This document shows positions 3,231 to 34,383 of a DNA stretch of 64,000 nucleotides, in pieces (within the stretch, counting starts at the first letter, position 1; each line of letters starts with the position of its first letter). The notes beneath the pieces were generated by a model that was given only the letters and a program-made list of their open reading frames with translations, searched no databases and had not been told where the DNA came from. Source of the stretch: Beroe forskalii (lineage: Eukaryota; Ctenophora; Nuda; Beroida; Beroidae); assembly GCA_011033025.1 (NCBI GenBank), contig WFMF01000020.1:620001-684000 (forward strand). Reading direction: 5' to 3'. A program made the position numbers and the translations under genes.

Positions 3231-3236
3231 TTTATT
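3231..3236 (-). promoter_or_regulatory. AATAAA polyadenylation signal overlapping the dynein stop codon
   Basis: The last codons AAA-TAA followed by AGG create a canonical AATAAA across the stop codon. I see no other AATAAA in the next 200 bases downstream, so the 3' UTR may be only 10-30 nt long. Inferred from sequence only. Confidence 0.45.
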
Positions 3237-3645
3237 TGATATCGCACAGGAGGGCTACACCTCGCATGATCCACTTCTCATCATTGGCTGTGCCGTGCCT
3301 CAGCTGCACGGTAGCTATGAAGGTTAGGTCAGTGCGCCGCGGTTTCTTGTATATCGGACACTCGTAGAGCTTTGAATCGGCCGGGGGCACGGAGTTCTCC
3401 GCGAATATCCGGATGACGGGTAGGGGGGTGGACATGACTTTGGGGGGCGACTCCACCAGCCGGGAGTTCCTGCGGTCCCACCCGGCGCCGTCCAGGAAGA
3501 GACCGTGCACGAAGACGCCCTCCGGGGGCGGCGCCGAGATGTCGTCCTTCGTGTGCTTCGTCATCTCGTTATTGAGCACCACGCCGTCCAGCGCCCAGCC
3601 CTTGTGGGCGCGCGTTACTTCCTGCCTCATCGCCGTCAGGAAACC
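3232..3645 (-). CDS. Dynein exon e18: terminal exon with stop codon
   Basis: 137 codons plus TAA. It starts [20 protein letters not shown] after CCCCCTCTCAG, and ends GVALLCDIK. The family C-terminus is matched throughout ([35 protein letters not shown]). The intron before it is filled with about 49 copies of this exon's own acceptor and first codons. Confidence 0.94.
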
Positions 3646-6600
3646 CTGAGAGGGGGTGCTAGGTTAGGTTCTGTGGGAGCGTTACTTCCTGTCTCATCGC
3701 TGTCAGGAAACCCTGAGAGGGGGTGCTAGGTTAGGTTCTGTGGGAGCGTTACTTCCTGTCTCATCGCTGTCAGGAAACCCTGAGAGGGGGTGCTAGGTTA
3801 GGTTCTGTGGGGGAGCGTTAAAACGTTTTCCTGAACTTTCTCATCCTTTGAAAATCAGGATTACCCTGATGGAGGGGGTGTCAGGGGGGGGGGGAAGGTT
3901 GGTTCTGTGAGCGTTACTTCCTGTCTCATCGCTGTCAGGAAACCCTGAGAGGGGGTGCTAGGTTAGGTTCTGTGGGAGCGTTACTTCCTGTCTCATCGCT
4001 GTCAGGAAACCCTGAGAGGGGGTGCTAGGTTAGGTTCTGTGGGAGCGTTACTTCCTGTCTCATCGCTGTCAGGAAACCCTGAGAGGGGTGTTCGGTTAGG
4101 TTCTGTGGGAGCGTTACTTCCTGTCTCATCGCTGTCAGGAAACCCTGAGAGGGGGTGCTAGGTTAGGTTCTGTGGGAGCGTTACTTCCTGTCTCATCGCT
4201 GTCAGGAAACCCTGAGAGGGGGTGTTCGGTTAGGTTCTGTGGGAGCGTTACTTCCTGTCTCATCGCTGTCAGGAAACCCTGAGAGGGGGTGCTAGGTTAG
4301 GTTCTGTGGGAGCGTTACTTCCTGTCTCATCGCTGTCAGGAAACCCTGAGAGGGGTGCTAGGTTAGGTTCTGTGGGAGCGTTACTTCCTGTCTCATCGCT
4401 GTCAGGAAACCCTGAGAGAGGGGGTGTCTCAGGTTAGGGGGGTTCTGTGGGAGCGTTACTTCCTGTCTCATCGCTGTCAGGAAACCCTGAGAGGGGGTGT
4501 TCGGTTAGGTTCTGTGGGAGCGTTACTTCCTGTCTCATCGCTGTCAGGAAACCCTGAGGGGGGGTGTTCGGTTAGGTTCTGTGGGAGCGTTACTTCCTGT
4601 CTCATCGCTGTCAGGAAACCCTGAGAGGGGGTGCTAGGTTAGGTTCTGTGGGAGCGTTACTTCCTGTCTCATCGCTGTCAGGAAACCCTGAGAGGGGTGC
4701 TAGGTTAGGTTCTGTGGGAGCGTTACTTCCTGTCTCATCGCTGTCAGGAAACCCTGAGAGGGGGTGCTAGGTTAGGTTCTGTGGGAGCGTTACTTCCTGT
4801 CTCATCGCTGTCAGGAAACCCTGAGGGGGGTGCTAGGTTAGGTTCTGTGGGAGCGTTACTTCCTGTCTCATCGCTGTCATCGTCAGGAAACCCTGAGGGG
4901 GCTAGGTTAGGTTCTGTCGGGGAAACCCGTTACTTCCTGTCTCATCGCTGTCAGGAAACCCTGAGAGGGGGTGCTAGGTTAGGTTCTGTGGGAGCGTTAC
5001 TTCCTGTCTCATCGCTGTCAGGAAACCCTGAGAGGGGGTGCTAGGTTAGGTTCTGTGGGAGCGTTACTTCCTGTCTCATCGCTGTCAGGAAACCCTGAGA
5101 GGGGGTGTTCGGTTAGGTTCTGTGGGAGCGTTACTTCCTGTCTCATCGCTGTCAGGATACCCTGAGAGGGGGTGCTAGGTTAGGTTCTGTGAGAGCGTTA
5201 CTTCCTGTCTCATCGCCGTCAGGAAATCCTGAGAGGGGATGTTAGGTTAGGTTCTGTGGGAGCGTTACTTCCTGTCTCATCGCCGTCAGGATACCCTGAG
5301 AGGGGTGCTAGGTTAGGTTCTGTGGGAGCGTTACTTCCTGTCTCATCGCTGTCAGGAAACCCTGAGAGGGGGTGCTAGGTTAGGTTCTGTGGGAGCGTTA
5401 CTTCCTGTCTCATCGCTGTCAGGAAACCCTGAGAGAGGGGGTGCTAGGTTAGGTTCTGTGGGAGCGTTACTTCCTGTCTCATCGCTGTCAGGAAACCCTG
5501 AGAGGGGGTGCTAGGTTAGGTTCTGTGGGAGCGTTACTTCCTGTCTCATCGCCGTCAGGAAACCCTGAGAGGGGGTGCTAGGTTAGGTTCTGTGGGAGCG
5601 TTACTTCCTGTCTCATCGCTGTCAGGAAACCCTGAGAGGGGGTGCTAGGTTAGGTTCTGTGGGAGCGTTACTTCCTGTCTCATCGCTGTCAGGAAACCCT
5701 GAGAGGGGGTGCTAGGTTAGGTTCTGTGGGAGCGTTACTTCCTGTCTCATCGCTGTCAGGAAACCCTGAGAGGGGGTGCTAGGTTAGGTTCTGTGGGAGC
5801 GTTACTTCCTGTCTCATCGCCGTCAGGAAACCCTGAGAGGGGGTGTTCGGTTAGGTTCTGTGGGCGCGTTACTTCCTGTCTCATCGCTGTCAGGAAACCC
5901 TGAGAGGGGGTGCTAGGTTAGGTTCTGTGGGAGCGTTACTTCCTGTCTCATCGCTGTCAGGAAACCCTGAGAGGGGGGTGCTAGGTTAGGTTCTGTGGGA
6001 GCGTTACTTCCTGTCTCATCGCCGTCAGGAAACCCTGAGAGGGGGGTGCTAGGTTAGGTTCTGTGGGAGCGTTACTTCCTGTCTCATCGCCGTCAGGAAA
6101 CCCTGAGAGGGGGTGCTAGGTTAGGTTCTGTGGGAGCGTTACTTCCTGTCTCATCGCTGTCAGGAAATCATGAGGGGGGTGTTCGGTTAGGTTCTGTGGG
6201 AGCGTTACTTCCTGTCTCATCGCTGACAGGAAACCCTGAGAGGGGGTGTTAGGTTAGGTTCTGTGGGAGCGTTACTTCCTGTCTCATCGCTGTCAGGAAA
6301 CCCTGAGAGGGGGTGCTAGGTTAGGTTCTGTGGGAGCGTTACTTCCTGCCTCATCGCTGTCAGGATACCCTGAGAGGGGGTGCTAGGTTAGGTTCTGTGG
6401 GAGCGTTACTTCCTGTCTCATCGCTGTCAGGAAACCCTGAGAGGGGGTGCTAGGTTAGGTTCTGTGGGAGCGTTACTTCCTGTCTCATCGCCGTCAGGAA
6501 ACCCTGAGAGGGGGTGCTAGGTTAGGTTCTGTGGGAGCGTTACTTCCTGCCTCATCGCCGTCAGGAAACCCTGAGAGGGGGTGCTAGGTTAGGTTCTGTG

Positions 6601-9600
6601 GGAGCGTTACTTCCTGTCTCATCGCTGTCAGGATACCCTGAGAGGGGGTGCTAGGTTAGGTTCTGTGAGAGCGTTACTTCCTGTCTCATCGCTGTCAGGA
6701 AACCCTGAGAGGGGGTGTTCGGTTAGGTTCTGTGGGAGCGTTACTTCCTGTCTCATCGCCGTCAGGAAACCCTGAGAGGGGGTGCTAGGTTAGGTTCTGT
6801 GGGTGCGTTACTTCCTGCCTCATCGCTGTCAGGATACCCTGAGAGGGGGTGCTAGGTTAGGTTCTGTGGGAGCGTTACTTCCTGTCTCATCGCTGTCAGG
6901 AAACCCTGAGAGGGGGTGCTAGGTTAGGTTCTGTGGCTAATACTGGGCATTTATTATCATAGAAGTATAGCACCAGCCGAACGGCCGACAATGTAACATG
7001 ATAAATTATCATAATATCATAATCATACGAAGATTTTATAGTCACCTGAGGATTGAAGAACCCAGTCATCCAGAAGACATTAGGTCTGCCGTAGAAGCAC
7101 CAAGAGTGGAACTGTGCGTTACGCTCGATGAGTTCCGTGAACCAGAAGCCGATAGTGCTGCTGTCCCAGCTGATCCGGCTCCAGAACGGCGGCACTTTGG
7201 CATCGTAGATATTATCCAGCGCTTCCCGGAGCTTCTCGCTCATGATAATCGTCCCTTCGATTGCTAACTTCAGATCTGTTAGTGTGGTTCTTACACACGT
7301 TATCACCCGTTGCATCCGATCTATCTCTTGCTTGAGGAAGATGTTCATGGAGGACAGTGCTCCCATTTCATTGATTTTCTCCTTCACTTGGTGCGCCACG
7401 TAGTCTTGTGGTAGTTTCGAGAGCATGTCGTCTGCCATCTTGAAGACGATGCTCTCCCTGGTTTCCCCCATCCCGGCGCTGCTCTCCTTGGGCTGGATGT
7501 TGAGGATGGTGTCGAGTATGTCCCGTGCTGTCTTAGCCTGGTAGGTGATGTTAGCGTTGGGGTGCAGCCCCAGTACCTCCGGGGAGTCCACCGGGGGGAG
7601 CTTCTCAATGAAGTCCAGGTGCTGCTGGACCGTCTTACACGCGGGGATGGTGTAAGGCTTCCCTGCCTCCGCGTTACTCCCGCTAGGACAGAAGAACTGG
7701 AAGCCCTGCGCGAACATCTCATCCCTGAACCACGCCTTGCAGAAGGTCTTGAGCAGTCTCTTGTCCATGTCGTCTGTCACCCTGCCCCCGTACTGCACCT
7801 CCCCTATCATGTACCGCACCGTGCTCCAGTTCACTCCGTGCCGCGGATCCATGTCATCCAGATGGTTCTGCAGGAACTGGATCGAAGCAGCCAGGTCCGC
7901 CTGATTGAACTCGTACGGGATGTTCCAGCCCAGCGGACCGAACTTCCGCCGCTCCTGCACCACCGTGTGCAGCATTGCTACTGTGTACAGCATGGGCTTC
8001 CACTGGGGCATGTTGGTGATGTCCAGCTGGTCTTGGGTCACGCCGTTGTAGGTCCTCTTGACCCCCGCCTTGACCCCCTGCGGGGGCTCGTTGGTGTACT
8101 TGAGTCCCACCTGGAGGAGATTTATGGGGAAGTGAGGGTGCCCCTCCGTCGTGAGCCACAGTCTGAACGTCTCGTGGACAGGGCCAGGGGGCTCCGTGAT
8201 GGTTTGCAGCAACTCGTCCATGAAGTTGAGGCCCAAGTGGCAGTTCTGAAGCAGGACCCAGCCCCCGTGGGTCATTGACTGAGTGAGGAGGCGTCGGGCG
8301 TGTATCTCCTGTCCTTGGCCCATGGACACCGGCTTGCAGTCAACTTTCAGCTTTTTGGCAAGTGTGTCAATCTGAGCGCTAGGGTCGGAGCCCATGCTGA
8401 GGAAGCAGATAAGGGGAGTCTTAGGGTCGCTCTCTCCCCACATGGCCTCGAAGTTCAGGATCACTCCGTCAGCGAACTTCTGCCCCAGTGCGTCCACAAC
8501 GAAAGTCCGGGCCTGGGCCAGGGTGCGGTCCGGGCACCAGGATCTGACCAGGAGCAGCCTCTTGAAGATGTCCAGAGAGTTCTGGTATCCGTCAGGAATG
8601 TTTCCTTCCTCCGGCGCGTCACTGTCATACCACTGCTTCCACTGCTTCTCATTCCGCCTGAGGGCAGGAGGTTTGTGAAGGAAATCATGAACAATGGAAG
8701 ATAACGAGGAATGTATGGTCAGCAGCTGATCTAGTAAGGAGCAACGATGATTTGGCTTTTTGGAAATTCGTTGAAAGAACTTGGGTATTTTGTTACATTT
8801 TTGAAACGATCCATAATTGCAACGTGATCTTAAACCGAATAATCAATATTGGGTGAGGCCTACAGCGATAACTATTTTAAATTTTTGAAGCGCCAACTCA
8901 CGTGACTTGGGAGAGAATTTCAGAAAACTGGGGAATCTTGGAGAGTTCCACGAGATTGAGCCATGTCATGTCTGATATCCAGTTACTCTTCGGCTTAGGA
9001 GGGCATGTCTTGAGGTCCAAGGCTGCACCACCTGCAGAAGGGAAACCGAAAAGTAGAAACAAACTGGAGAAACCCCAAAGAATATAAAACTTCATATTCT
9101 TCAATGCTCATCACATAATACATCATATCAGTGAACAGCATTACATTAGAATCACGATTCTAAAGGTTTAAAGCAGCCATCCATCACGCATCTCTCCCCC
9201 TTCTCCCCGTACCTTTGATGAAAGTCATGAACTCGTTGGGTTTGATCCTATTGCTCTGGAGGCATATCTTGAGGGTTAGTAGAAGGGTGTAGAGGAACTT
9301 GTGCTCCTCGTACAAGCCCCGCACTTGGTACTTCCACACTTCATACGTCAGGTAGTCGATGATGTTAGTGATCCGCTTACTCGTGATCGGAGACTTGTCA
9401 GACCTGGATTACGAGAATAGTGTTGAGAAAACGGGTAAAAGTGGTGAAATTGTGCGCGGCTGAAGATGGAACAAAGGAACATGACTCCTCACATTCCCTC
9501 ACGGGGAGACAAGGGTAAAGGTTCCAGTTAAGTATATCAACTGTCAAGTTGTTTATGTTGTAGAGGACAGATATCTGGAGGTCCTGAAGGGAACTGCAAG

Positions 9601-12600
9601 ATCCCTGATAAACTGCAAAGTTTCTCAAAATTAAGGATTTATTGAGTTGCTAGATCAATTCCGAAAAACCCATCAAAAAATTGTCATAACATGCATTTGA
9701 GAATAAAAAAGACTAGGACCAATGAACCTTCAATTCATCATGAAGTAATAAGGAAGGCGCCCATTATAATTGGACATGTTTGGTTGGAACATTTCACGCG
9801 TACATCATTATCTAATCTGCATATAATCTCGATATTGCTATAAAAATATCATGGGGACTGGGGAGTCATATGATTAATTGGACCAGGGTTTTATGTTGTG
9901 CCGCAAAAACATTCTGAATAGCTGAATAGCTGAATGTTCTGTAGTTTTAGTCACGCTCGTGCAGCTTTCTATCAAACCGCAACAGTTTTATAATTGCTAC
10001 ATTTTCAATACTGCTTCACAAACAGGTAGCAATTCGCTTAAAGCAAATCAATTTGATAAATTTAGAACTATTTCACTCGAATTTTATGCTTTGACCCTAA
10101 TCATCGTGATTCGGGTTCAGTAAACAAACAGCGGTGGCAAGAATTAAAACCTAAGTACTGCGATAGGATATGTCATTGAAATCAAATCAAGGCCCTTGAT
10201 TCAAGGGCCTCATAGACTGATTGGAATCTAATCAACGCGTGTAATTGGGTTCCAATTAACGCGCGTGATTCGGATTGTAAGCCAGTAAACAAGACAGGTC
10301 CTCAGGACTATAATATAACAAGTTTAATACACAGCTCACTTTTCCATGGAGTCATCGAACAGCGCCAGGAATTGGCGGATGCTGGTCTGGTACATCACGT
10401 TCACGTAGCTCATCTCCACGATAAGGAAGTAGAGGATGCTGCCCCGGCAGGCTACCGGTCGGAACTCCTCCCTGGCAGAGTTGATCTTAACTTCCGTTTC
10501 TGCTGCAGTCACCAACTTGTGTTTCACCTGTAGAGAAGAGGAGGTAAGGGGAGTGAAGACACAGGGAGAGGAGTTGAAGGGGGGGGATAACTGGGGTATT
10601 TCAATTTCAACGCACTGTTATTACTATCACAAAAACCGTTCGGTGGTTGGCGTAGTAAGACCCTTCTCGAGGGAGGGTGGAAGGGATGGTGTGAAGGGTA
10701 CAGAAACACATACAGAGAACTGACAGAGAGGCATTTCATGATATCATGAAATTTCATGATATGTTTGAAGTTATCTAACTTATTATTTCCCTTGTTTACA
10801 TCTTATGACTGAGTAACCAACCTCCTCGGAAGTGATCTTGGTGACATTGAGCACTTCGATGAGTGATTCGTCGTCAACGAGCGGACCCTGAATGCTGGTT
10901 AGCTTGAAGAGGAGGTTCTCTTCTAGCTCATCCATCTTCCGTTTGTTGGAAGTTACATCCTGGAATGAGATGGGGGTTAGTATCATGAGGAGAGTCATGA
11001 TAATTACCTGGAAAAGGGTGGGTATGAGTCATGAGGAGGGTCATGGACAGCTCTCGCAGGGTCAAGTGCCAATGAATTGACAACTGATCCCAAGAGAAAA
11101 GCACTCTGCTGAATTGCTTGACAGCAACGCTACTGGGTAGATCAGAAGTAGTAGTTCGTACCTCTATCAAGTTAGTCCTCTCCTTCTCGAGCTCTCCCTT
11201 CTCCTTCAGGATGACAATACCCAGCAACTGGTCCTCCAGACCTTTCAGGGTCACCGTGAAGTCGATGATGCTGGTCCGGGCTGAGATCTCGGGCGTGTAC
11301 GCAGGGTTAGCTAGCTTTGTCGTGATGTAGATACGGAACCCAGACATTACGTCTAACTCTTTGTCTCCCACTTTCACCTGGTAGGAGGAGGAAGCATTAC
11401 TTCTCAAAACGGACTGATGTAGTGCACACTTATTAGAAATATAGTGTAGGATTCAGGTCAATGTCAGAAGTATGATTTCGAATGGTTGATGAGAAGGACT
11501 GGTTCACTAAAAATGTTTACTAGACATGTTTGGAAGGGCACATCATAAACCAGGTTACAAACCTTCAGAGTTTTTCCACTCTTGATAAAGTTCTTCTCCA
11601 GGACATTGTCCAGAACTGGGTCGAGCTCCTCGGCTGCGGCAATACTTGCCTCAGTATTCATATATAGCTTTAATAAAACTGGCAACTTTATTCATATTTT
11701 TGTTGAAATTGAACACATCTGGATTAGGTACTGCACTGGCATATGGCATCCCTAATAAGATGAAAAGATACCACGTTACTCACCAACATCCTCAATCATG
11801 AGAGGCCTCCCCTGCGAGAGACAATCCTCCAGATGACTTCGGAAGTACTTGTGGTTCAGGGAGGTCACCTGAACGTGTTCACAGTTAGTGGGTTCACCTG
11901 TTTGTTGGATTAGAAAATTAGAAATGATACTTCATATAATCACAACTCATCATAAAGTTCAATGAAAGTTAAATCAGCTTCAGCCATTCGCAAGAATCTC
12001 AGGCATGTCATCTGCATTAGGGCATTGTATCATGTCGTACAAGAGCTTCAAACTAATCAGTATGAGGTCTGCAATAGTTCATGCACCCGAAGTATCAAGA
12101 CGACTGGCAATGGATTCACCTTACGAGGAATATGTATATGGTGAGAAATTTGGGATATAAATGAAAAATCATTTTATTTTCTCACTACCAAAACTTTTCT
12201 TTCCCATGATGATGGTGCTAGATTTGCAGATTTTTGATAAAAATAACCACCAAAGAAAAATGTTTAACACTGCTGTCACCGGTCATGCATATTCCTCGTA
12301 AGCTCGTAAGATGGCTTGATTGGAAGGCAAACCGTGATTTCAATGTTTCTTCTTCTGCTAAATGTTAAACAGCTTGGATAAATCATGAAGATCAATCTGC
12401 CAGTTGTGCGTGAGTGAGATTTAATGCTTCAATTAAGGATAGAAGAGCTTAGAAATCTTATCTTTATATTTAGAATCATACTCCCCGCATAGGAACATAA
12501 TGTGATAGTGCTGTTTTTAATTTGTCAAGAGATAACAGTCGGGGTGCAAAAGTTAATAAATTCTCAGATAACAGCAGTAATGTCATTGTAAAGATTCTAA

Positions 12601-15600: not shown

Positions 15601-18600
15601 TTCTGAAGTACTGACACACTTTCATAAATTGTCACTGTAAAATGTAGGTACATCATGTTCATTGCATCGCCATCCATTGATGACGTACACACTACATACT
15701 TTGGAAGTCAGTACCACGATTGTACCATGTGACAAGCACTGTGTGTATAATTGTACATGCAGACATTCTGCCATCGCCTACCAGTTTGCCAATATGGAAT
15801 TGGTCCATATATTTACATCATGTATTATGTGATATATATCACAGGGTACGCCAAAAGTCTTGACCCCTTTTACTTTTTTGATCATTCGAAAAATACGGCA
15901 AATATTTCGATTCTGTAAAAATATTCTCTAAATATAACCAAAGAATGGCGGATTCTGAGATTTTTAGGTTGCTATGACATCCATAGCAACCACAGGGGTT
16001 CCCATAGCAACCGACCTAAAAATTGAAGATTTTTTGACATTTAGATCCAGGCCACATTTTCTGTTTTGATTACTCATCATACAGGATAGATATTTCCATT
16101 TTTGTGTAAAGTTTCAGTAATCATGATTCATGACCAGTCAACGCTGAATTTCGAGATTTCAGGTTGCTATGACCTTCATAGCAACCACACGAGTTTCCAT
16201 AGCAACCGAACTCAAAATGGAAAAATCTAGGTCTTTTAAGAAATAAAACTCGCTAATTGCCATTCATTTCAATGCTATTGTTGATAGAAAGAGTACTAAA
16301 CAACACAAAATGTTCCAATACAGTTAATCTAGCTCAATAGGGGTTCAATGCATGTTGGATGTAGTCTCCTTGGGTGGAATTTGGGGCTGATTTAAGTGAA
16401 AATCCTTGCATTTTAATACGGTTGCTATGGAAACTCGTGTGGTTGCTAAGAAAGTGAATAGCAACCTGAAAATCTCGAAATTCAGCGTTGACTGGTCATA
16501 ATTACTGAAACTTTTCACAAAATCGAAATATCTATCCTGTATGACGAGTAATCAAAAGAGAAATTGTGGCCTAGATCTAAATGTCAAAAATACCAAAATC
16601 TTCAATTTTTAGGTCGGTTGCTATAGGAACTCGTGTGGTTGCTATGGATGTATATACCTATGATATGCGGGACAAAACCATGTGATCAGCTTGCTTGTAT
16701 ATAGATATAATACATTTGCTCACCTTATACAGAGTGTATTGTACAGCCTGCTCTGTACCTAATCTTGTTCATGTGAAATGCCTTGAATGTACCTTCATCA
16801 CTGCGTTGCTGTTGAAGTCCCATTGGCTCATCGGTACCCCTGCCTGGAAATGTTACTTTCTATAATTACATCGCATAATCAGTTGTGTACAATCACGAGA
16901 TTTACACCCTGCTGTTGAGTTTTTTGAAAAACATGAATGTTGTATTGAAGTACCGCCACACTGTTTAATGTACTAAAGGGTGTACACTGTACATTACATT
17001 ATAAGTTCACTGCATCATCATCCAGTGATGACGTGTGCTGTATATGTACATATTATATGATAACTTGTTAGTACTCATTTATAACATAACTTTAAAATGA
17101 AATTGACAAAAAGCATCTACTCTTGAAACAAGAATAAGTTTGTTGGTCCTTATCAAATCACTGCCGGTTGCCACAGTTGCAGGAAATCTGAAATGGTATC
17201 ACTGTTAACGACGGTGGGGTGGACAAGGGTCTCTCGCTATTTTGGCAAACAAGAGTCTGGTGTTTCAAATCGCGCGCGCGCGTTGTCCACCCCACGCTTG
17301 TCGACCCCACGAAATAGCACAACTGTGTGCTTTTTTCCAACAATTGACTGGCAACCCCTAAGGCTCCTACATTTTTTGAGTTATCGACATGGGGTTTTTT
17401 GTAATGCCTAGATAAATCTATTCTACACTAAAAGTGCATCTCCTTTTTTGAATTAGGCCTCACAAGCTCGTCAATCAATCAATGTTCATGCGCAATTGGA
17501 AAACGACGTTTTTCAACATTTGTACATCATGGGACATTGCGAAGGTTGTGATTGGAGTTCCCAGATGATCTTTATATCTCTGGATAGCTGAGACTTTCCT
17601 CTATTGATTCCATGCAAGTTTTAAGAGAAATTTTGACTCTTTTGTCGTTTTTCGAAGAGAAACGTTGTTCTAATTGGCGACTCGTCGCTACCTGCGCACA
17701 GACTACTAGCAAAGGTGTCCACCCCACGTGCGCAGGGTGGTAAAGCACAAGCAACAGAGAAATCAGGAAATTTCATTGCAATATAATTAGGTGAAGGCAT
17801 TAAGTTAAACCGGTCACCAGATCAGCGGTTGAAAACTGTAAAATTGTTCCGGCCCAAGTGCTGGTGCCATTGGAAGTCAACAAAACTTACGAATTACCAT
17901 ATAGAACAATGATTGAAAAATATTGCACTATATCATAGGATTCTAAGCGAAGTAAAAGAAAGAACCTGTGGATCGATGATGAGTGGGTAGCGGGTAGCTT
18001 TCGTACAGATGATTCCATTCTGAATGCTCAGCTCGTCACTTGGCAAACCTTGCAGGTTCCATTCTGATATCTGAAAATCAAAACATATGAGAAATGCAGT
18101 TTAACATCAAGCTAAAAAACTGATTTAATGGAGAATAGACATTTCAAAAAATTAAGATAAAATTTTGACATGATGATGTCTAGGTTAGGAGTGTAAGTTT
18201 ACCGATGTCTTATCAGCTAGCATGCTGATGAGGTCTAGGTTGGCAGTGTAAGTTTACCGATGTCTTATCAGCTAGCATGCTGATGAGGTCTAGGTTAGGG
18301 GTGTAAGTTTACCGATGTCTTATCAGCTAGCATGCTGATGAGGTCTAGGTTAGGGGTGTAAGTTTACCGATGTCTTATCAGCTAGCATGCTGATGAGGTC
18401 TAGGTTAAAGGGGTGTAAGTTTACCGATGTCTTATCAGCTAGCATGCTGATGAGGTCTAGGTTAGGGGTGTGAGTTTACCGATGTCTTATCAGCTAGCAT
18501 GCTGTTGGGGTCTAGGTTAGGGGTGTAAGTTTACCGACGTCTTATCAGTTAGCATGCTGATGAGGTCTAGGTAAGGGTCTAGGTTGGGGGGTGTAAGTTT

Positions 18601-21600
18601 ACTGATGACCGTTTACGATCTTATCAGCTAGCATGCTGATGAGGTCTAGGTTAGGGGTGTAAGTTTACCGATGTCTTATCAGCTAGCATGCTGATGAGGT
18701 CTAGGTTAGGGGTGTAAGTTTACCGATGTCTTATCAGCTAGCATGCTGATGAGGTCTAGATTGGTGGTGTAAGTTTACCGATGTCTTATCAGCTAGCATG
18801 CTGATGAGGTCTAGGTTAAAGGGGTGTAAGTTTACCGATGTCTTATCAGCTAGCATGCTGATGAGGTCTAGGTTAGGGGTGTAAGTTTACCGATGTCTTA
18901 TCAGCTAGCATGCTGATGAGGTCTAGGTTGGGGGTGTAAGTTTACCGATGTCTTATCAGCTAGCATGCTGATGAGGTCTAGGTTAGGGGTGTAAGTTTAC
19001 CGATGTCTTATCAGCTAGCATGCTGATGAGGTCTAGGTTAGGGGTGTAAGTTTACCGATGTCTTATCAGCTAGCATGCTGATGAGGTCTAGGTTAGGGGT
19101 GTAAGTTTACCGATGTCTTATCAGCTAGCATGCTGATGAGGTCTAGGTTAGGGGTGTAAGTTTACCGATGTCTTATCTGCTAGCATGCTGATGAGGTCTA
19201 GGTTGGGAGTGTAAGTTTACCGATGTCTTATCAGCTAGCATGCTGATGAGGTCTAGGTTGGGAGTGTAAGTTTACCGATGTCTTATCAGCTAGCATGCTG
19301 ATGAGGTCTAGGTTAGAGTGTAAGTTTACCGATGTCTTATCAGCTAGCATGCTGATGAGGTCTAGGTTGGGGTGTAAGTTTACCGATGTCTTATCAGCTA
19401 GCATGCTGATGAGGTCTAGGTTGGGGGTGTAAGTTTACCGATGTCTTATCAGCTAGCATGCTGATGAGGTCTAGGTTGGGGGTGTAAGTTTATCGATGTC
19501 TTATCAGCTAGCATGCTGATGAGGTCTAGGTTGGGGGTGTAAGTTTACCGATGTCTTATCAGCTAGCATGCTGATGAGGTCTAGGTTAGGGGTGTAAGTT
19601 TACCGATGTCTTATCAGCTAGCATGCTGATGAGGTCTAGGTTAGGGGTGTAAGTTTACCGATGTCTTATCAGCTAGCATGCTGATGAGGTCTAGGTTAGG
19701 GGTGTAAGTTTACTGATGTCTTATCAGCTAGCATGCTGATGAGGTCTAGGTTGGGGTGTAAGTTACCGATGTCTTATCAGCTAGCATGCTGATGAGGTCT
19801 TGCTTTTTCTGATGTTTTATCAGCTAGCATGCTGATGAGGTCTAAGTTGGGGGTGTAGGGGATACTCCGGCTTTTGTTCTCGTTCTGCCAGTTCTTGAGG
19901 AGGAGTTGTCGGTATTCCTGGTTGAAAGGCCCGCAGTAGGAGAGGAAACCCGTTGCCATGAGCACGTCACCCACCAACCTGAGAGGGCGTACAGAGGTCA
20001 GGAAATTCAGAGCGATTGCGGGATAGTTTCAAATAATTCTCGATCTGTTTCACAGCATTGGTGTAATTTTATGAAATCAATTCCTGAACTGATAAAGAGC
20101 ATCAGATCATGGTGACCTGATACTATATAGACAGGGATCTATAAAGGTCTTGTAAGAGTGAATGTTAGATTTTCAAAAAGCAGTGAGTCTCATGGTCAGG
20201 AGTAGAAGTACCCAATGTCTAGTCATCATCTGCCCTATATGAGTAGAACAGAATCGGTTCGCTTTTCTATTTTTTACTCATTTATCAATTAAGTAATGAG
20301 AAAATTGATGAATTGTTGGCAAAAAAGGTCGCTTTCGAAAAGTTCTTGCTTTTAAAAGCTCAAAGATTCGCGAACATATATTGCTAAACTATTAAAGACA
20401 CGAGTCGTTAATGATTTTATTGCTAACTTATATATCACACACCATGAGTAATAGCTTTCTTTGAACCACTTACCCATTGATAATGAGTGCATTTATTATC
20501 ATTCGAGTGTTTAAAATTAAACGTTCTCTCGCATTTTAAATGAAATTATAAACGTCTGCTTTATCATTTTTAATAGAAATCCCGCTAGTCCATAAAATTT
20601 TTAAGAGGCACAATATTCGGCTCTATAATGGGATTTCTAAGTTCTATCTCACAAAATTATAATTATAGCCAGTCCAATGTACCAATTTAAAAACATTTGT
20701 TTTGCACGAGCAGGCGCGCAAGCGCTCCCAGGGTCACAACCGACAAAATTCTGACATTCTACAAAAAAATTGAAGATCAGTTAGAATTCATTGTCAATTT
20801 AACTGTAACCATTCCGACCCATTTCTATCCCGAAGTTTGAAATCCCCTGAGATGAAGTCCTACCTGCCCAGTCCCGCACTCACCTCTCTATCTGAGCTTT
20901 GAACTCCTTGCTCTGCTCCGTCCACCTGACCTTCTCCCCTCCCAGCCCGTCAATAAGTGTCTTAGCAGCCACCATCCTCCTCTTACATGTGGCGGCGTCG
21001 TTCATCAGGTCCTCCTTTTCTCTCATGGCATCATCGTACAGCTTCATAACCTAGCAGGAGGGCAAGGGAGTTAGTGTGTGTGTGGATAGTAGAGCAAATC
21101 ATTGATAACTGATCATTTCACTGTTTACACACAAAATACTCGGTGAATTGTGGTCCTTACAGTACCCCTGATAACATGACAACAAATGCGTGTAATTAGC
21201 AACATAATGCATCATGAGTTGGTCACCTTGTCAAGCTCTGCTTGTTTGGCGTCCAGCTGGGCCTGTGCCTGGTTCATAGACTCAGTGGCGTCCTCCAGCC
21301 GCCTCTCTTGGACTGCTAGGTTAGCCTTGAGAGGAAGCACCTCCTTGTTGATACTATAGTAGGAACTCATTGCTTTAGTCCAGGAGCAGAGTCCAGCCAC
21401 ATTGCCACACACCTGAACAGTTTATGTGAAGTATTGTCACATTGCCACACACCTGAACAGTTAATGTGAAGTCTTGCCACATACCTGAACTGACAGTGTG
21501 AAGTCGTGCCTCACACCAGCAGAAGTCTTGCCTCACACCAGCAGAACAAACAGGAAAGAGCATGAGCAGGGACGTGACTGTCTCAATGTTCATTACAAGG

Positions 21601-24600
21601 CTCATTTTCGTCACCTCATACAGTATCCCAGACGACGTGGCAATAAAGTGTCACCCCCCAATAAGGCAGTGACAGATATGAGATATTGACGACACGTCTA
21701 GCATCTAACCTTCTTAGCCACTTCCAGGGTGTAATCAGGCATCTCGAAGTAGGGCTGCAGCAACTCAACCACTTCATCGTTGATGGTGTCCTTGTTGAAG
21801 TTCTGAAGGCACTGGAGGAAGTTGCCTCCACTCAGCATCTTCAGAGACTGAGACCAGGAGGGCTTGACGCAGGGTCTGTCAGGGTCCATGTCTACACTCT
21901 CCATGGGCCGGCCCAGGAGCAGCAGCACGCAGTCAGATATCCTCATGATAAGGTGCGGGGGCTTAGGCAGCTTCCTCACTGTGGCGATGTCTGACGGCTT
22001 AATCGTCTGAGAGAATGGGTGGTTACAGCTGAAAGACAGATAAATACCAAGATAAAAGTGATAGCTCAATAATATGATAACACATGACATTTGAACTTTT
22101 GAATTATCGAAATAGGTATCGATGAATCAGTTTTAGCTTCAAATTAATGTCTTCTTGTTAAGTTGTTATTAATGCTTTAATGCATGTTGCAGAGATGCAA
22201 ACTGCGTTGATTGCTTCTTGCAATCATCCTCCCATTGTAGCGACAATCTTACCAGTAACGCGTTTTCTGCCTCAATAAGAGCAGGCTTAGCAGCCTCTAA
22301 CTTCTCTTCTGCGATGGCTTTGTCGCTTGAAATGCTGTCGAATATGGCTTGTGCCTTGTCCTTCTTCTTTTGAACCTCCTGTTTCGCTACCTCGGCAGCC
22401 TCAGCCTGGACTGCCACATCAGCCAGTACTTTCTCCGCTTTTTCGGAGGAGACAGCAAGTTCCTTCTCCTTGCCCACCAGCTCCACAGAGAGCAAGGCTA
22501 CTGACTCACTCGCCTCGTTCAACTTGTCTAGACCTGTGTGGGAGATGCTCAGCGTGGGTTACATCAAGATTAAAGAAGGGATATTTTCAGCTTTTACATT
22601 CTCAGCTTCGAAGGACCTACCGTATGTACTAGAACATTAAAGCATTACACCAAGATAAATTTACAGAGATGACAGAGCAAGTCAATACCATCGGTTTACT
22701 GCATTAGACTTGCAGGATATAAAAACAATGACTGTCAAACTTAGACCCCTTCCAAAGTGACAGATGTCCGAGTAGATGCTGAGTGATCGCATGATGGGAA
22801 CTACCAATTCCTCCGACAGTGGAACAATGTTAGAACATGTTGGTGTTTCACATATTTTCATATCACATTTGATCGATGAAGTAAGTCCAATCAAGTTCAA
22901 AGGAGAATTTCACCCTGGACAAGCCTTCAGTGTGTCAATTTTAATAGGTTTCGTGTATCGATTTGTGGGGGGTACCAAGGGGTAATTATCGAAATATAGC
23001 ATAACACTCGATCCCATTCAAAGAAATGGGTACACAAGATGATAATGGGATGTTCCACAGGATGATCACAATAGTTATTGTTGGATTTTGACAGTACGGA
23101 GCATGATTATCTAACGGTTCTCGTGGGAATATAAGTTCACGAGACTACAGGAGAGCAAATGCTTCGCATAGTTCCCACAGAGAATCCGAGTTCAATCTAT
23201 AATCCGGATTAATCTATAATTCGTAAATTACGGGTTACATGAAGACTCTGACAGGTTTTACCTGTGTTCATGCGCTGAGCCATGTCGTTCTTCTGCTTGC
23301 ACTTCTCAGTGTAGATCTCCTTGTAGTTAGCTATGAAGGACAGGTAGCTCTTGGGGGTGACATGGGTCGATCTCCTGAACCTCTCGAAGTAGTTAACACA
23401 AGCCTCAGCCACCCCGTCGTGGATATACCCCATGGAGTAGACTATCTGTTCCTTGGTTTCATCAGCACACAGCATCTCAAAGCTGGAGAGGAAGTGTTTG
23501 GCTACAGCGATCAGGGCGTCTTTAGGCCACCTCGCAAACCAGTCCATGGTACAGCCTGATATCAACCCGGGGAACTTGAGCGCTCGATTCCTGAACTTCT
23601 CACCGACCTGAAATGAAAATAGTTGAGAGATTTTCATTCAGATCTACTTTTCACAAGATAATAATAGATACTGTGATGATAAACCAGGACATCAGCTTTT
23701 CCATCGCCTAATTTGGACATTAAACCCAAAACATAGCTGCCCTAAACCTCAACGTTGGTAGATTGATCCCCCATGTTTCACTTTGCAACAGTATAAGTGT
23801 CAGACTGGAGTCACTTTCACCTTGCAACACTCTCTGTAAGTGAAGAAGTGACAGACTTGAGTTTGTACTGACCGGTGAGGTCTAAGTAAGTGAAGAAGTG
23901 ACTGTTCAGACTGACCGGTGAGGTCTAAGCAAGTGAAGAAGTGACTGTTCAGACTGACCGGCGAGGTCTAAGTAAGTGAAGGAGTGACTGTTCAGACTGA
24001 CCGGTGAGGTCTAAGCAAGTGAAGATGTGACTGTTCAGACTGACAGGTGAGGTCTACGTAAGTGAAGAAGTGACTGTTCAGACTGACCGGTGAGGTCTAA
24101 GTAAGTGAAGAAGTGACTGTTCAGACTGACCAGTGAGGTCTAAGTAAGTGAAGAAGTGACTGCTCAGACTGACCGGTGAGGTCTAAGCAAGTGAAGAAGT
24201 GACTGTTCAGACTGACCGGTGAGGTCTAAGTAAGTGAAGAAGTGACTGTTCAGACTGACCGGTGAGGTCTAAGTAAGTGAAGAAGTGACTGTTCAGACTG
24301 ACCGGTGAGGTCTAAGTAAGTGAAGAAGTGACTGTTCAGACTGACCGGTGAGGTCTAAGTAAGTGAAGAAGTGACTGTTCAGACTGACCGGTGAGGTCTA
24401 AGTAAGTGAAGTAGTGACCGTTCAGACTGACCGGTGAGGTCTAAGTAAGTGAAGGAGTGACTGTTCAGACTGACCGGTGAGGTCTAAGTAAGTGAAGAAG
24501 TGACTGTTCAGACTGACCGGTGAGGTCTGAGTAAGTGAAGAAGTGACTGTTCAGACTGACCGGTGAGGTCTGCCTAAGTGAAGAAGTGACTGTTCAGACT

Positions 24601-26595
24601 GACCAGTGAGGTCTAAGTAAGTGAAGAAGTGACTGTTCAGACTGACCGGTGAGGTCTGAGTAAGTGAAGAAGTGACTGTTCAGACTGACCGGTGAGGTCT
24701 GAGTAAGTGAAGAAGTGACAGACTTGAGTTTGTACTGACTGGTGAGGTCTGAGTAAGTGAAGAAGTGACTGTTCAGACTGACCGGTGAGAAGCAGAGGAC
24801 GATGTGGAGGTTGTTCCTGGCCCTGGAGAGGAAGTACTCGTAGAGGTTCTCTGGGGTGGGTGGGTGTCTGGGGGCCTCCTTCTTCATTACCGGGATCAGC
24901 TCCTGCAATATCTCATCCATCTCGTCCCGGGGAAACAGGTTGGACACCTGGGCAATTAATAGGAACGTGCTAGTAAGTTACTAGGCAAGAAAGTTAGTAT
25001 GTGTTTCTTAAATCTTGACTGAGAGATACCGCACAACAGCTTTCTGACATTAAAAAAATCTAAAGAAAGTATCCCATAATCCAAATAGGCGAGACCTTTC
25101 ATTATGTGATAACTACTTCACTAATGAAATATGTTTCAGCGCCCCTAGAAGTTCTAAATTTAATACATAACTCATAAGAGCATGAGACGTCTAAGGTTCA
25201 GTTAGTGAGTTAGTGTCAGGGTTTGGTTAAGGTTTTGGTAACTAAAAGATTAATAATTTGATCTGTGACGAACTCACAGAGCCGTTTATACCACGAGTCG
25301 TAGATAATAAATTAAGAGGTGTCCGAAGTGGAATGTTTGAACCAAAACCAACCAGTTCGTTGAAATTCAATTTCACAGAAATGCAATAATCATGTTGTGA
25401 ACTACAAAAAACTATTCGACTCAATCACCTCCCACTAACTAACTAATTAAACCCTACTAGTATATTCAATATTGAAATTCAATTTCACATAAATTCAATA
25501 TGTTGAGAACTATAAAACCAGTTCGAAAGCTTGATTCCTCACTCACCTCCCCACAAGAAAGGATGTTGTTGAGGTACTCCAGGAAGCCCTCCTCCTTGAT
25601 ATCGTTGTCAGTGAAGATGAAGCTCATGGGAACGCCCTGGAGCCCTGTGTTTCTGTACAGGATCTTCAGGTCGTCCATCAGGTTGCTGTTGTTGTAGGAC
25701 CTCGTTAGCGTTATCTGGAACGTTCGGAAGCCAGCAATAAAGGAAGCTAGTTTGGTGAGCGACTGTTTGCCAGACCCACCGACCCCCACCAGTAAGGCGT
25801 TGCCCCTGGGGGTCTGCAGAATCCTGGATATCTTGACCAGGTGAGTCATGGCGTCGTTGAAGAAGACCAGGTCTAGGGGTGCCCCTCGCACACTCTCGTT
25901 GTACTGCTCCATGAAGCCGATCAGACGCTGCTCCAGCTGGGAGAACGAAGCGATCGCCTCGTAGATCGAAGGAGCATCAAAATCAGCGTCCTCGGGCTCG
26001 TCCCCCGTTACATCAGGGGCATCCCGTAGGAAGCTGACAAACCACTCGTCCTGAGACACGTGGGGCACATACTCCGGTCCGAGGTCCTCCTCCACCAAGC
26101 TCTGTACCATCTTCTTAAACCAGACCAGGTCTTCAGGGTTAGTGAACCGGTCAGCTATCACTCGGGTACCCTCGTGCTGCCACAGCTTGAGGATGGTTGC
26201 TTCACTGGACGCAACCTCGGGAATACACTTCAACATTCCCTCCCAAATCCTGCTCAAGTCACGGAGATTGAAGATGTAGTGGAACTTGGCAGGAGTAGGT
26301 AACATCTTGATCTTGGTGTTCTGCCAAAGGCGTCGTGTCAACGGAATAACTCGTTCCACGAACTTGACCACTTCCTCGTTAAACCCTCGTTCGGAACAGT
26401 AGTACCCGCACCCGATCGTCTTGAAGATCTTGTCCATGCTGGCGTTGGAGGGCAGGCAGCAGTTGAAGATGCTGAAATGGCGCTTGAGCCGCTGGGGGAT
26501 GTCGTTGCGGCCACCGCCCGGCTGGATCATGGCAGCCATGAAGAACATGTCCGTGATGGTGGTGAAGTCCCCGATCTTTTCCAGACTGTAGAATC
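3232..26595 (-). CDS. Axonemal outer-arm dynein heavy chain, DNAH5/DNAH8-type, 3' part of gene (18 exons)
   Basis: Joined minus-strand exons: 26595-25547, 24947-24783, 23607-23262, 22533-22253, 22006-21710, 21412-21227, 21050-20884, 19978-19804, 18070-17966, 11868-11784, 11633-11563, 11377-11162, 10959-10822, 10527-10340, 9403-9213, 9031-8902, 8657-7046, 3645-3232. All phases agree, giving about 1937 residues ending in GVALLCDIK and a TAA stop. Seen in order: end of AAA3 (PGGGRND), AAA4 with P-loop GVGGSGKQS and FIFTD Walker B, coiled-coil stalk around the microtubule-binding tip, AAA5, AAA6 and the C-terminal domain ([20 protein letters not shown]). By family knowledge this ATP-driven motor forms part of ciliary outer dynein arms. 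The family is about 4600 residues, so the N-terminal tail, linker and AAA1-AAA3 are absent from the window. Oddities: the donor of the exon ending at 19804 is not GT, about 17 family residues between 17966 and 11868 are not found, and several introns hold arrays built from splice junctions. DNAH5 and DNAH8 cannot be told apart here. Confidence 0.93.
3600..6935 (-). repeat. 67-bp minisatellite carrying the terminal-exon splice acceptor (about 49 copies)
   Basis: On the minus strand each unit reads CTAGCACCCCCTCTCAG then GGTTTCCTGACAGCGATGAG and on to GAAGTAACGC, i.e. pyrimidine tract, AG, and the first 11 codons ([11 protein letters not shown]) of the real last exon at 3645. The array fills nearly all of the last intron. 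After the copied codons each unit reads LPQNLT and TAG, so use of a decoy acceptor would end the protein early. Most variation between exon and array copies (ACG/ACA, AGG/AGA) is synonymous. One irregular unit lies at about 3815-3905. Confidence 0.95.
7046..8657 (-). CDS. Dynein exon e17: AAA6 and most of the C-terminal domain
   Basis: A long uninterrupted exon of 537 codons. Landmarks: [134 protein letters not shown] and ending MTGFFNPQ. Acceptor CCCTCAG at 8659-8658; donor CAG|GTGACT at 7045. GC-rich compared with the AT-rich introns. Confidence 0.95.
8902..9031 (-). CDS. Dynein exon e16: AAA6
   Basis: [12 protein letters not shown], then [20 protein letters not shown]. Acceptor CTGCAG; donor AC|GTGAGT splits a Thr codon. 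Confidence 0.9.
9213..9403 (-). CDS. Dynein exon e15: start of AAA6 region
   Basis: 63 codons including [20 protein letters not shown] and [16 protein letters not shown], ending FMTFIK with a split Gly. Acceptor ATCCAG; donor AAAG|GTACGG. Confidence 0.9.
9404..10339. other. Dynein intron between e14 and e15
   Basis: No coding sequence or element recognised; AT-rich. Confidence 0.55.
10340..10527 (-). CDS. Dynein exon e14: AAA5-AAA6
   Basis: It reads [20 protein letters not shown], then [13 protein letters not shown] and [18 protein letters not shown]. Acceptor CTACAG; donor AA|GTGAGC splits a Lys codon. Confidence 0.9.
10822..10959 (-). CDS. Dynein exon e13: AAA5-AAA6 linker
   Basis: 46 codons: [20 protein letters not shown] through [13 protein letters not shown]. 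Acceptor TTCCAG; donor GAG|GTTGGT. A second, diverged copy of the acceptor region lies 48 bp upstream. Confidence 0.9.
10955..11055 (-). repeat. Diverged two-copy duplication around the e13 acceptor
   Basis: Minus-strand CTCCTCATGATACTAACCC to CATTCCAG at the real acceptor is echoed 48 bp upstream by CTCCTCATGACTCATACCC to CTTTTCCAG|GTAATT. Confidence 0.6.
11162..11377 (-). CDS. Dynein exon e12: AAA5 core
   Basis: 72 codons, [31 protein letters not shown] and [17 protein letters not shown]. Acceptor CTACCAG; donor GAG|GTACGA. The usual position LLGRVIL reads LLGIVIL. Confidence 0.91.
11563..11633 (-). CDS. Dynein exon e11: AAA5
   Basis: A small 71-bp exon: split Ala, then [23 protein letters not shown]. 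Acceptor GCCGCAG; donor AAG|GTTTGT. It matches the highly conserved [16 protein letters not shown] segment. Confidence 0.9.
11784..11868 (-). CDS. Dynein exon e10: AAA5
   Basis: 28 codons plus 1 nt: [28 protein letters not shown] (conserved LEDxLSxGRPLxIED). Acceptor GTTCAG; donor G|GTGAGT. Confidence 0.9.
11869..13393. other. Dynein intron portion left of foldback copy A
   Basis: AT-rich intron sequence. I looked here for the missing AAA5 exon (residues like GKxWIKNKE) on the minus strand and did not find it. A weak short repeat TTTTCCCGAATTT occurs near 12990-13035. Confidence 0.55.
13394..17739. mobile_element. Large foldback element, copy A (4.35 kb, intronic)
   Basis: The left arm from 13394 is repeated in reverse complement ending at 17739, with arms of about 1.1 kb. 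The interior contains further inverted repeats, including a hairpin of CCATAGCAACC motifs at 15850-16650. The right terminus is the full family end (reverse of CACCCTGCGCACGTGGGGTG); the left one lacks about 16 bp. No transposase is encoded. The motif GTGGGGTGGACA recurs several times in each arm. Copies B (43162) and C (60673) are the same family. Confidence 0.88.
17740..17965. other. Intron remnant between copy A and exon e9
   Basis: Nothing recognisable. Confidence 0.5.
17966..18070 (-). CDS. Dynein exon e9: AAA5
   Basis: 35 codons beginning [20 protein letters not shown] and ending IIDPQ. Acceptor TTTTCAG; donor CAG|GTTCTT. In relatives this is followed by about 17 residues resembling TQGKxWIKNKE that I cannot find in the next intron. 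Confidence 0.9.
18180..19800 (-). repeat. 55-bp minisatellite carrying the e8 exon end and donor (about 29 copies)
   Basis: Minus-strand unit: CTCATCAGCATGCTAGCTG, ATAAGACATCG, then GTAAACTTACACCCC. The first 30 bases encode [10 protein letters not shown], the end of exon e8, followed by a GT donor. The copies sit directly downstream of the true exon. Units vary mainly in the short GGGG stretch, and one irregular unit is near 18580-18625. Confidence 0.94.
19804..19978 (-). CDS. Dynein exon e8: start of AAA5, with an abnormal donor
   Basis: It starts [20 protein letters not shown] and ends [13 protein letters not shown] followed by EK if a GC donor AAA|GCAAGA at 19803 is used. That is the only donor-like site that keeps the frame into the next exon; there is no GT before an in-frame TGA. 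All downstream array copies keep TCG|GTAAAC instead. The start is certain (CTCAG acceptor); the end is inferred. Confidence 0.8.
19979..20883. other. Dynein intron between e7 and e8
   Basis: AT-rich intron; I see no gene, repeat array or transposon terminus in it. Confidence 0.6.
20884..21050 (-). CDS. Dynein exon e7: CC2/strut
   Basis: 55 codons plus 2 nt: [44 protein letters not shown]. Acceptor GCTAG at 21052-21051; donor AG|GTGAGT at 20883. It contains the WTEQSKEF strut motif common to axonemal heavy chains. Confidence 0.9.
21227..21412 (-). CDS. Dynein exon e6: stalk coiled coil CC2 start
   Basis: 62 codons, [15 protein letters not shown] through [13 protein letters not shown] to AELDK, the descending stalk helix. 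Its acceptor TTCAG|GTGTGTGGC is duplicated upstream with a 40-bp period (see repeat at 21399-21545). Confidence 0.91.
21399..21545 (-). repeat. Short tandem duplication of the e6 acceptor (2 good and about 3 decayed copies)
   Basis: The junction CTGTTCAG|GTGTGTGGCAATGTG occurs at the true exon start (21412) and again exactly 40 bp upstream, followed by progressively decayed versions to about 21545. It is a small-scale version of the large arrays in the same gene. Confidence 0.85.
21710..22006 (-). CDS. Dynein exon e5: microtubule-binding domain
   Basis: 99 codons starting [20 protein letters not shown], with [12 protein letters not shown] and [20 protein letters not shown], the diagnostic core of the dynein microtubule-binding tip. 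Acceptor TCTCAG; donor AAG|GTTAGA. Confidence 0.92.
22253..22533 (-). CDS. Dynein exon e4: stalk coiled coil CC1
   Basis: 93 codons rich in Glu, Lys and Ala with heptad character ([20 protein letters not shown] to [11 protein letters not shown]). This is the ascending stalk helix that leads to the microtubule-binding tip. Donor CTG|GTAAGA. Confidence 0.9.
22534..23261. other. Dynein intron between e3 and e4
   Basis: Ordinary AT-rich intronic sequence with no recognisable element. Confidence 0.6.
23262..23607 (-). CDS. Dynein exon e3: AAA4 C-terminal part and link to stalk
   Basis: It starts [19 protein letters not shown], includes the conserved [10 protein letters not shown] and [11 protein letters not shown] segments, and ends MNT plus a split Gly. 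Acceptor TTTCAG; donor ACAG|GTAAAA. Confidence 0.92.
23826..24786 (-). repeat. 43-bp minisatellite carrying the e2 donor (about 21 copies)
   Basis: Minus-strand unit contains CTCACCG|GTCAGTCTGAA and CAGTCACTTCTTCACTTAC. The true exon ends TTCTCACCG|GTCAGTC, so each unit repeats the last 6 or 7 exonic bases and the donor. Two longer variant units containing GTACAAACTCAAGTC occur near each end. Confidence 0.93.
24783..24947 (-). CDS. Dynein exon e2: AAA4 continuation
   Basis: It has 55 codons, [20 protein letters not shown] to LHIVLCFSP, flanked by GCCCAG acceptor and CCG|GTCAGT donor. The donor is the seed of the 43-bp minisatellite that fills the start of the next intron. Confidence 0.92.
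25185..25310. mobile_element. Half-copy of the foldback element seen at 1-383, in the e1-e2 intron
   Basis: GATCTGTGACG, a CAGAGCC motif and the TTAGTGTCAGGGTTTGGTTA-like stretch match positions 80-235. Only one side of the foldback is recognisable. The rest of this 600-bp intron holds the e1 donor duplication. Confidence 0.4.
25320..25555 (-). repeat. Diverged two-copy duplication around the e1 donor
   Basis: The true donor GTGGGGAG|GTGAGTGAGG at 25547 has a counterpart GTGGGAG|GTGATTGAGT at 25429, followed in both by related sequence through GAAATTGAATTTCAA. The offset is about 118 bp. Confidence 0.65.
25547..26595 (-). CDS. Dynein exon e1: end of AAA3 and AAA4 P-loop/Walker B
   Basis: This is the most upstream recognisable exon (349 codons after a split Gly codon). 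Acceptor CCCCAG|GA at 26597-26596; donor GGGGAG|GTGAGT at 25546. It begins [18 protein letters not shown], includes the AAA3 segment [16 protein letters not shown], then AAA4 with [16 protein letters not shown] (Walker A) and FIFTDNDI (Walker B). The intact P-loop argues that this was a functional AAA4. A young LTR element lies only 30 bp upstream of its acceptor. Confidence 0.93.
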
Positions 26596-26629
26596 CTGGG
26601 GTGAGGCGGGAGGGTTACAGGTTTATAGG

Positions 26630-27005
26630 TGTACACAATGGCTTAATCAGAATTAGACGTACGGGGAAGCAGGTGTTCACTTGTGGGTAATTAGTGTTAA
26701 AACATGGTTTTATCAGTTTTGTGGACACGGTTTCTGGGTTTCTTGGTTTTATGTTTTAGTATTTCAGGGATTCTTTAGGTAAGATAAGGGAGAGAACGCG
26801 GTTGCACGGTCTTGTGATTTATAGTTTTTCTCAGTTCTTAAAGCATTAACTTCCTGTACGTTGCTCTTGAAGGAATATTAATTGCCTAGAACACCAGTGT
26901 CTCATTCTGTCTCCTCGCAAGCTCCTGAGCCCAATTGATCCCCTGTAATCCTTCCCCTGACAACACCCTTCCCCTGTACACACAACCATCTCTTTTTTGT
27001 GTACA
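26630..27005 (+). repeat. 5' LTR of a non-autonomous LTR retrotransposon
   Basis: 376 bp, beginning TGTACACAATGG and ending TTTTTTGTGTACA. It is a nearly identical direct repeat of 28793-29168, with only about 2 differences seen. Confidence 0.92.
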
Positions 27006-28792: not shown

Positions 28793-29168
28793 TGTACACA
28801 ATGGCTTAATCAGAATTAGACGTACGGGGAAGCAGGTGTTCACTTGTGGGTAATTAGTGTTAAAACATGGTTTTATCAGTTTTGTGGACACGGTTTCTGG
28901 GTTTCTTGGTTTTATGTTTTAGTATTTCAGGGATTCTTTAGGTAAGATAAGGGAGAGAACGCGGTTGCACGGTCTTGTGATTTATAGTTTTTCTCAGTTC
29001 TTAAAGCATTAACTTCCTGTACGTTGCTCTTGAAGGAATATTAATTGCCTAGAACACCAGTGTCTCATTCTGTCTCCTCGCAAACTCCTGAGCCCAATTG
29101 ATCCCCTGTAATCCTTCCCCTGACAACACCCTTCCCCTGTACACACAACCATATCTTTTTTGTGTACA
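28793..29168 (+). repeat. 3' LTR of the same element
   Basis: 376 bp, TG...CA ends. Differences from the 5' LTR are GCAAGCTCC/GCAAACTCC and CCATCTC/CCATATC. Confidence 0.92.
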
Positions 29169-34378: not shown

Positions 34379-34383
34379 TTACC

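Follow-up and report, generated by a model that had tools for sequence, protein, structure and literature searches.

Why should tandem arrays come to lie, again and again, on the splice junctions of one gene? The question is raised by a stretch of 64,000 nucleotides from the ctenophore Beroe forskalii (assembly GCA_011033025.1, contig WFMF01000020.1, positions 620,001 to 684,000 of the forward strand; hereafter the window), in which a dynein heavy chain gene carries several introns filled or edged with tandem copies of their own exon-intron junction. A sequence-only reading of the window had described six such arrays, known of no standard repeat class that behaves in this way, and offered breakage or slippage tied to splice sites or R-loops, or selection for redundant splice sites, as possible causes. 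The analysis reported here leads to a more ordinary answer. Judged by their sequence, the arrays are the same kind of structure as the “mirage” minisatellites of amphioxus, found here in a new phylum, and they are probably the product of generic, frequent tandem duplication, to which junctions are tolerant since the copy on the exon side is left intact. The gene and the arrays claimed for it are as follows.

3232..26614, minus strand: C-terminal part of a dynein heavy chain gene, exon model from 26581 down to 3235, with matches to dynein axonemal heavy chain 5
3612..6936, minus strand: A1, acceptor array, unit 67 bp, 49 units, acceptor at 3645
18171..19800, minus strand: A2, donor array, unit 55 bp, ~30 units, donor near 19804-19810
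23867..24789, minus strand: A3, donor array, unit 43 bp, 22 units, donor at 24783
21396..21546, minus strand: A4, acceptor array, ~4 decayed copies of 32-40 bp, acceptor at 21412
10940..11046, minus strand: A5, weak, acceptor at 10960 with one imperfect further copy over 37 aligned columns
25410..25570, minus strand: A6, at donor 25547; the window has just a 20-column second copy, ~115 bp downstream

By homology the host gene is a DNAH5/DNAH8-type axonemal outer-arm dynein heavy chain, which bears out its earlier description as a dynein gene; it runs on the minus strand. At 1382 bits, dynein axonemal heavy chain 5 is the top solved chain for the first half of the gene; for the second half, a 4,730-residue chain that carries its depositors' label “Cilia and flagella associated protein 57” leads with 1588 bits, ahead of dynein axonemal heavy chain 5 at 1573 bits. 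Most of the named relatives are DNAH8 or DNAH5. In a quick tree built from the C-terminal regions of DNAH5/8 sequences, the gene joins two environmental sequences, 90% and 81% identical, within a set made up mostly of animal sequences, the deeper forks being weakly supported; a third such sequence, P0003, whose 97% identity extends over 73% of the query, was omitted. Exons were mapped by exact translation together with a spliced protein-to-DNA aligner written for the purpose, which miscalls A2 (its intron 10135-10228 is disbelieved) and leaves a few more among its 84 introns doubtful. The relative P0001, a 2880-base contig with 90% identity, runs uninterrupted over the A1 and A5 junctions, and its own locus may be array-free. 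Two dynein paralogues, near C1024 1.42 Mb and C534 84 kb, hold very long open frames of 3715 and 3010 aa, while other heavy-chain paralogues are, by contrast, broken up by many introns.

In A1 to A4 the tandem unit spans an exon-intron boundary whose edges are defined by homology. A1 occupies almost the whole of a 3.4 kb intron, and its unit is composed of ~34 bp of the intron 3′ end (AACCTAACC, with a branch-like CTAAC, a pyrimidine stretch and CAG) and ~33 bp of the exon start; the AG is intact in 48 of the 49 units, and a single divergent stretch lies at ~3821-3895. The A2 unit combines 48 bp of exon end with 7 bp of intron start, GTAAACT, its GT being intact in 28 of 30 units. A3 contributes 7 bp of exon per unit (CTCACCG/GTCAGT..., the slash marking the junction) with the GT intact in 22/22, and shows a longer unit form (GTCAGTACAAACTCAAG...) near both array ends. 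A4, at the junction TTCAG/GTGTGTGGC, has a score reached by none of 2000 shuffles. Unit variants recur along A1 and along A2, as expected where a minisatellite exchanges and homogenises.

The earlier picture of these arrays needs correction in several respects. Of the six, the long arrays A1, A2 and A3 stand, as does the short and decayed A4, whereas within the window the evidence for A5 and A6 is weak (2000 shuffles each: P 0.005 for the second copy of A5, P 0.0045 for the A6 match), so that the idea of six solid arrays is rejected. Unit lengths had been put at 40-118 bp and are measured here at 32-67 bp. Nor do the arrays start at the exon edge, as had been stated, since the units of A1-A4 include ~7 to 48 bp of exon. 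The supposed intact AG or GT in each unit describes most of the units counted above, but the exon-proximal copy of A2 (window 19845-19780) lacks its GT: ACATCAGAAAAAGCAAG. An in-frame stop precedes the next downstream GT, and the exon-proximal copy may possibly use a GC donor two codons on (AAA/GCAAGA), be defective, or contain a consensus error.

Weak in the window, A6 takes on a different aspect in contig C955. There, after the A6 donor, an array of 67-bp units (L043 93-2401) extends for more than 2.3 kb and runs past the end of the piece read, next to an exon that is 97% identical to the window exon at 26.6-25.5 kb. One further feature distinguishes the two copies.

26630..29168, unstranded: multi-copy insert of ~2.5 kb, found in the window but not in C955, whose sequence is collinear on either side of it

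Beyond this insert C955 is still collinear with the window at 94%. As the collinearity holds at both sides, C955 is most likely the other haplotype, and the insert is probably a recent insertion polymorphism. The assembly of 216 Mb may include both haplotypes, because the genome of B. ovata is estimated at 94 Mb (PMC11184263). At donor 25547, then, a whole junction array is present in one and absent in the other of two copies of one locus. The C955 exon end beside the array (L043 1-120) carries small insertions relative to the window, with the frame apparently broken, which suggests consensus errors beside arrays.

Arrays of this design are not confined to one dynein gene, as had been supposed, but occur in four other dynein loci and in a calpain gene. 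Twenty stretches of 10 kb were sampled, 16 around dynein matches and 4 beside the window, and 8 junction-spanning arrays with unrelated units were found in 4 of 9 other dynein loci. The positions of these eight are coordinates within joined stretches.

C163 8133: donor array, 26 bp, 3 copies
C163 10053: donor array, 56 bp, 1.9 copies
C163 13935: acceptor array, 59 bp, 10 copies
C277 13706-14230: acceptor array
C790 4809: donor array
C790 11278: donor array, with an in-frame stop immediately before the donor
C790 13616: donor array, 1.7 kb
C248b 17026 (near 231 kb of C248, the contig to which the window belongs): acceptor array, 51 bp, 2.8 copies
L036 5460-5653: array before a calpain exon, 64 bp, 3 copies (Pfam PF00648, E 4.9e-11)

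At C441a only interior arrays and no junction-spanning one were seen, and no array was present in the examined spans of C321, C194, C469 and C580.

Twelve units, four of them from the window, were compared with one another and gave no cross match at E<0.01, in agreement with the earlier statement that the arrays are mutually unrelated in sequence. That they are independent births, as also proposed, is upheld by the unrelated units, by the A6 array in C955 that the window lacks, and by the position of the A1 intron in three paralogues, where the intron measures only ~142, 169 and 296 bp (from exon match coordinates) against 3.4 kb here. The junction arrays are young and polymorphic.

Whether junctions attract arrays depends on how often a random duplication would meet one. 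The introns are short, with a median of 231 bp in 49 filtered introns, and for a duplication of length u and an intron of length L the chance of spanning a junction is ~2u/(L+u), the intron lengths before array growth being estimated by hand, by subtraction. Counted with cut-offs of a Tandem Repeats Finder (TRF) score of at least 150 and a period of at least 16, which were chosen after the array list had been seen and so not blind, 12 of 24 arrays span a junction where 7.9 are expected at random (~1.5x, P 0.042), the other 12 being interior; with all introns fixed at 200 bp the same count gives P 0.051, and without the window 8 of 20 arrays span a junction against 6.0 expected (P 0.21). The exon share of the 12 spanning units, estimated by hand, ranges from 0.10 to 0.92 and is uniform (Kolmogorov-Smirnov P 0.98; P 0.94 for 13 units including that of C955). 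Birth tied to the junction would cluster unit ends there; the shares are even, and a modest junction preference of the arrays is therefore no more than possible.

The count itself rests on assignments made by hand. Arrays were classed as spanning or interior by hand, several from approximate exon edges, with arrays of the same intron treated as independent, and two of those counted (C790 11278 and C163 10053) had already been seen before the stretches were chosen. The two TRF blocks of A1 were merged, as were C277 13706-13830 and 13839-14230, and C790 8131-8229 was scored as interior though it touches a doubtful acceptor. Arrays below the cut-offs were left out (for example C248b 14227-14354, score 107, which ends 3 bp from an acceptor), C689 was omitted as no intron model was obtained, and the count excludes arrays outside the dynein spans, namely the calpain array L036 5460-5653, C790 71-361 (a probable acceptor array) and L023 245-508. 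A separate 30-mer test over 49 introns, filtered by alignment score and with 4 added by hand, gave no junction enrichment: a nearby copy exists for 0.45% of 12,996 exon 30-mers and at 2/49 donors and 4/49 acceptors, while 41% of interior intron 30-mers have copies, a high rate because arrays fill introns.

The explanation that we favour, and regard as probable, is that the genome makes short tandem duplications at a high rate, with units of 26-73 bp in the examined cases, and that those on junctions are tolerated. A first duplication would arise by slippage or microhomology-guided repair. Since the introns are short, about a third of the duplications in or near an intron would be expected to span a junction, and a splice-linked cause would be unneeded. 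Wholly exonic duplications would alter the protein and be removed by selection, while a junction-spanning one would be harmless and persist, as the copy next to the exon body keeps a complete exon and splice site. Once established, the array would grow, shrink and homogenise as an ordinary minisatellite, and splicing would use the exon-side copy, as exon definition would favour. Transcription reaches the true site of an acceptor array only after all the other copies, yet acceptor arrays are not clearly fewer than donor arrays (5 against 8 of 13 junction arrays, the C955 array included; P 0.58), and this balance, in small numbers, would fit a choice of the site beside the exon body over first come, first served.

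Several observations weigh against generic duplication as the whole account. In the window alone, which was chosen for its arrays, all four arrays counted span a junction against 1.85 expected (P 0.03), and the excess is also seen with units of at least 20 bp (12/21 against 7.6 expected, P 0.026) and of at least 25 bp (12/19 against 7.1, P 0.012). Correct splicing is unproven at A2, because the donor is without GT, and at C790 11278, because of the in-frame stop before the donor. Birth by microhomology is no more than suggested, from the CCACA found near both ends of the A1 duplicated segment, and the copy numbers depend on the assembly.

These excesses, in the window, overall and among the longer units, are what would be predicted if splice sites, or R-loops and pausing there, were hot spots for breaks or switches of template, with duplications preferentially born at them. 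The excess is not significant outside the array-selected window, the exon shares are uniform with no clustering at the junction, and half of the arrays counted are interior; breakage or slippage tied to splice sites, as the sequence-only reading had suggested, is thus unneeded, and we consider such hot spots unlikely. Little credence can be given to a still larger proposal, that duplication is actively drawn to junctions (for example through splicing- or R-loop-linked breaks), that this process is shared with amphioxus and so either goes far back in animal evolution or arose two times, and that it drives intron length and the formation of new introns genome-wide.

The retention of AG or GT in most units of A1, A2 and A3 could be read as selection keeping the arrays, redundant splice sites giving robust splicing or alternative isoforms, which was the other cause put forward earlier. 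In A1, the one array for which this was computed, the conservation of the AG columns (1.00 and 0.98) is ordinary, the mean column standing at 0.979. Moreover, 10 of 12 unit lengths are not multiples of 3, therefore the use of an internal copy would usually shift the frame, and A2 has lost its exon-proximal GT while inner GTs remain. Selection on inner splice sites is rejected on these grounds and the explanation as a whole is very improbable. The possibility that units were created or inflated by mis-assembly draws on the apparently frame-breaking insertions of the C955 exon and the in-frame stop of C790, which make consensus errors near arrays possible, but the arrays lie on several contigs, have unrelated units and share variants internally, and the amphioxus counterpart is backed by reverse transcription PCR, trace data and re-sequencing; an artefact is likewise very improbable. 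A mobile, introner-like element that inserts at splice sites and multiplies would account for the many introns affected, but the exon repeated in each array is the array's own, three paralogues have a short intron at the A1 position, and the 12 units show no near-identical sequence across introns, for which reason introner-like spread is rejected and left with almost no probability.

Other features of the window and of the assembly lie apart from the junction arrays.

13394-17743: multi-copy element whose inverted repeats are nested, in the 6 kb intron between the exons at 17966 and 11835
34372-34773: open frame in which a reverse-transcriptase-like motif was recognised by eye, probably a fragment of a long interspersed nuclear element
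55293-55852: interstitial telomere-like array rich in TAACCC, ~560 bp
56990-60276: satellite-like repeat of 353 bp, 9.3 copies

The outermost arms of the element at 13394-17743 are 276 bp long and 100% complementary. For window positions 7000-26600, 344 matches were reported, and among the matches listed all but C955 fall within that element. Scanned against Rfam and for tRNA genes, the window gave zero matches, and a query with a conserved 18S stretch likewise gave none. Elsewhere in the assembly, the 13,339-base contig C1134 contains a divergent COX1 in which TGA is read as Trp and AGA as Arg, the latter at positions that we take to be conserved arginines. Over 500 residues this COX1 is 100% identical to that of Beroe forskalii, and on that ground amphioxus was rejected as the host. 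ARAGORN found no tRNA on this contig. Ctenophore mitochondrial genomes have been described with features like those of C1134 (PMC6991124).

The arrays have a wider significance. Where one true site has as many as 49 near-identical splice sites next to it, the spliceosome's choice of the exon-side copy can be put to a natural test, and a within-species comparison is offered by the locus of which one copy has an array and the other none. The geometric null, by which short introns make junction spanning common, provides a control for any claim of splice-targeted duplication. Ctenophores are often placed as sister to the other animals. In searchable papers, mirages are described only in amphioxus, and their occurrence in several ctenophore genes indicates that they are not a lancelet quirk. 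No report of ctenophore mirages appeared in the literature searched, most subscription papers and preprints being outside that search; a word-start search of the main text of the B. ovata genome paper gave no “tandem”, “intron” or “splice” (PMC11184263), and the Hormiphora paper, which assigns 13% of the genome to tandem repeats, does not mention junction structure in the parts covered.

Three known systems invite comparison. Introner elements affect many introns of one genome through near-identical sequences; the Beroe arrays likewise affect many introns, but, unlike introners, share no sequence. In the model of Rogers, introns are gained through the tandem genomic duplication of an AGGT-bearing segment (cited in PMC3087553), and a case of intron gain by tandem duplication is described for potato RdRp (PMC4974935). 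In Beroe, too, a short tandem duplication adds splice sites inside a gene, but here existing introns are lengthened, and a new intron of the Rogers type is rejected at A1, where three paralogues already have a short intron at the same position (evidence that applies to A1 only).

The closest likeness is to the amphioxus mirages, described in Adh3, BflGb6 and BflGb9 (PMC3087553), with PGBD5 and troponin C added later (PMC3902484), and it disposes of the notion of a repeat class without precedent, these minisatellites having already been published. Mirage units are locus-specific, measuring 10-72 bp in Adh3 and 150-160 bp in the globins, AG or GT is found in many but not all units, lengths differ between haplotypes, and units are homogenised within clusters (PMC3087553; PMC3902484); somatic length instability has also been reported for the Adh3 mirage. 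The Beroe arrays resemble them in having a locus-specific unit that spans the boundary, at both 5′ and 3′ intron ends, in keeping AG or GT in most though not all units, in homogenising, and in differing between copies of a locus, as at donor 25547, where the haplotype status of C955 is deduced from collinearity. They differ in belonging to a ctenophore, in that a single gene has several of its introns affected, and in the 22-49 units of A1-A3, against the 2-7 units reported for the globin and PGBD5 mirages of amphioxus.
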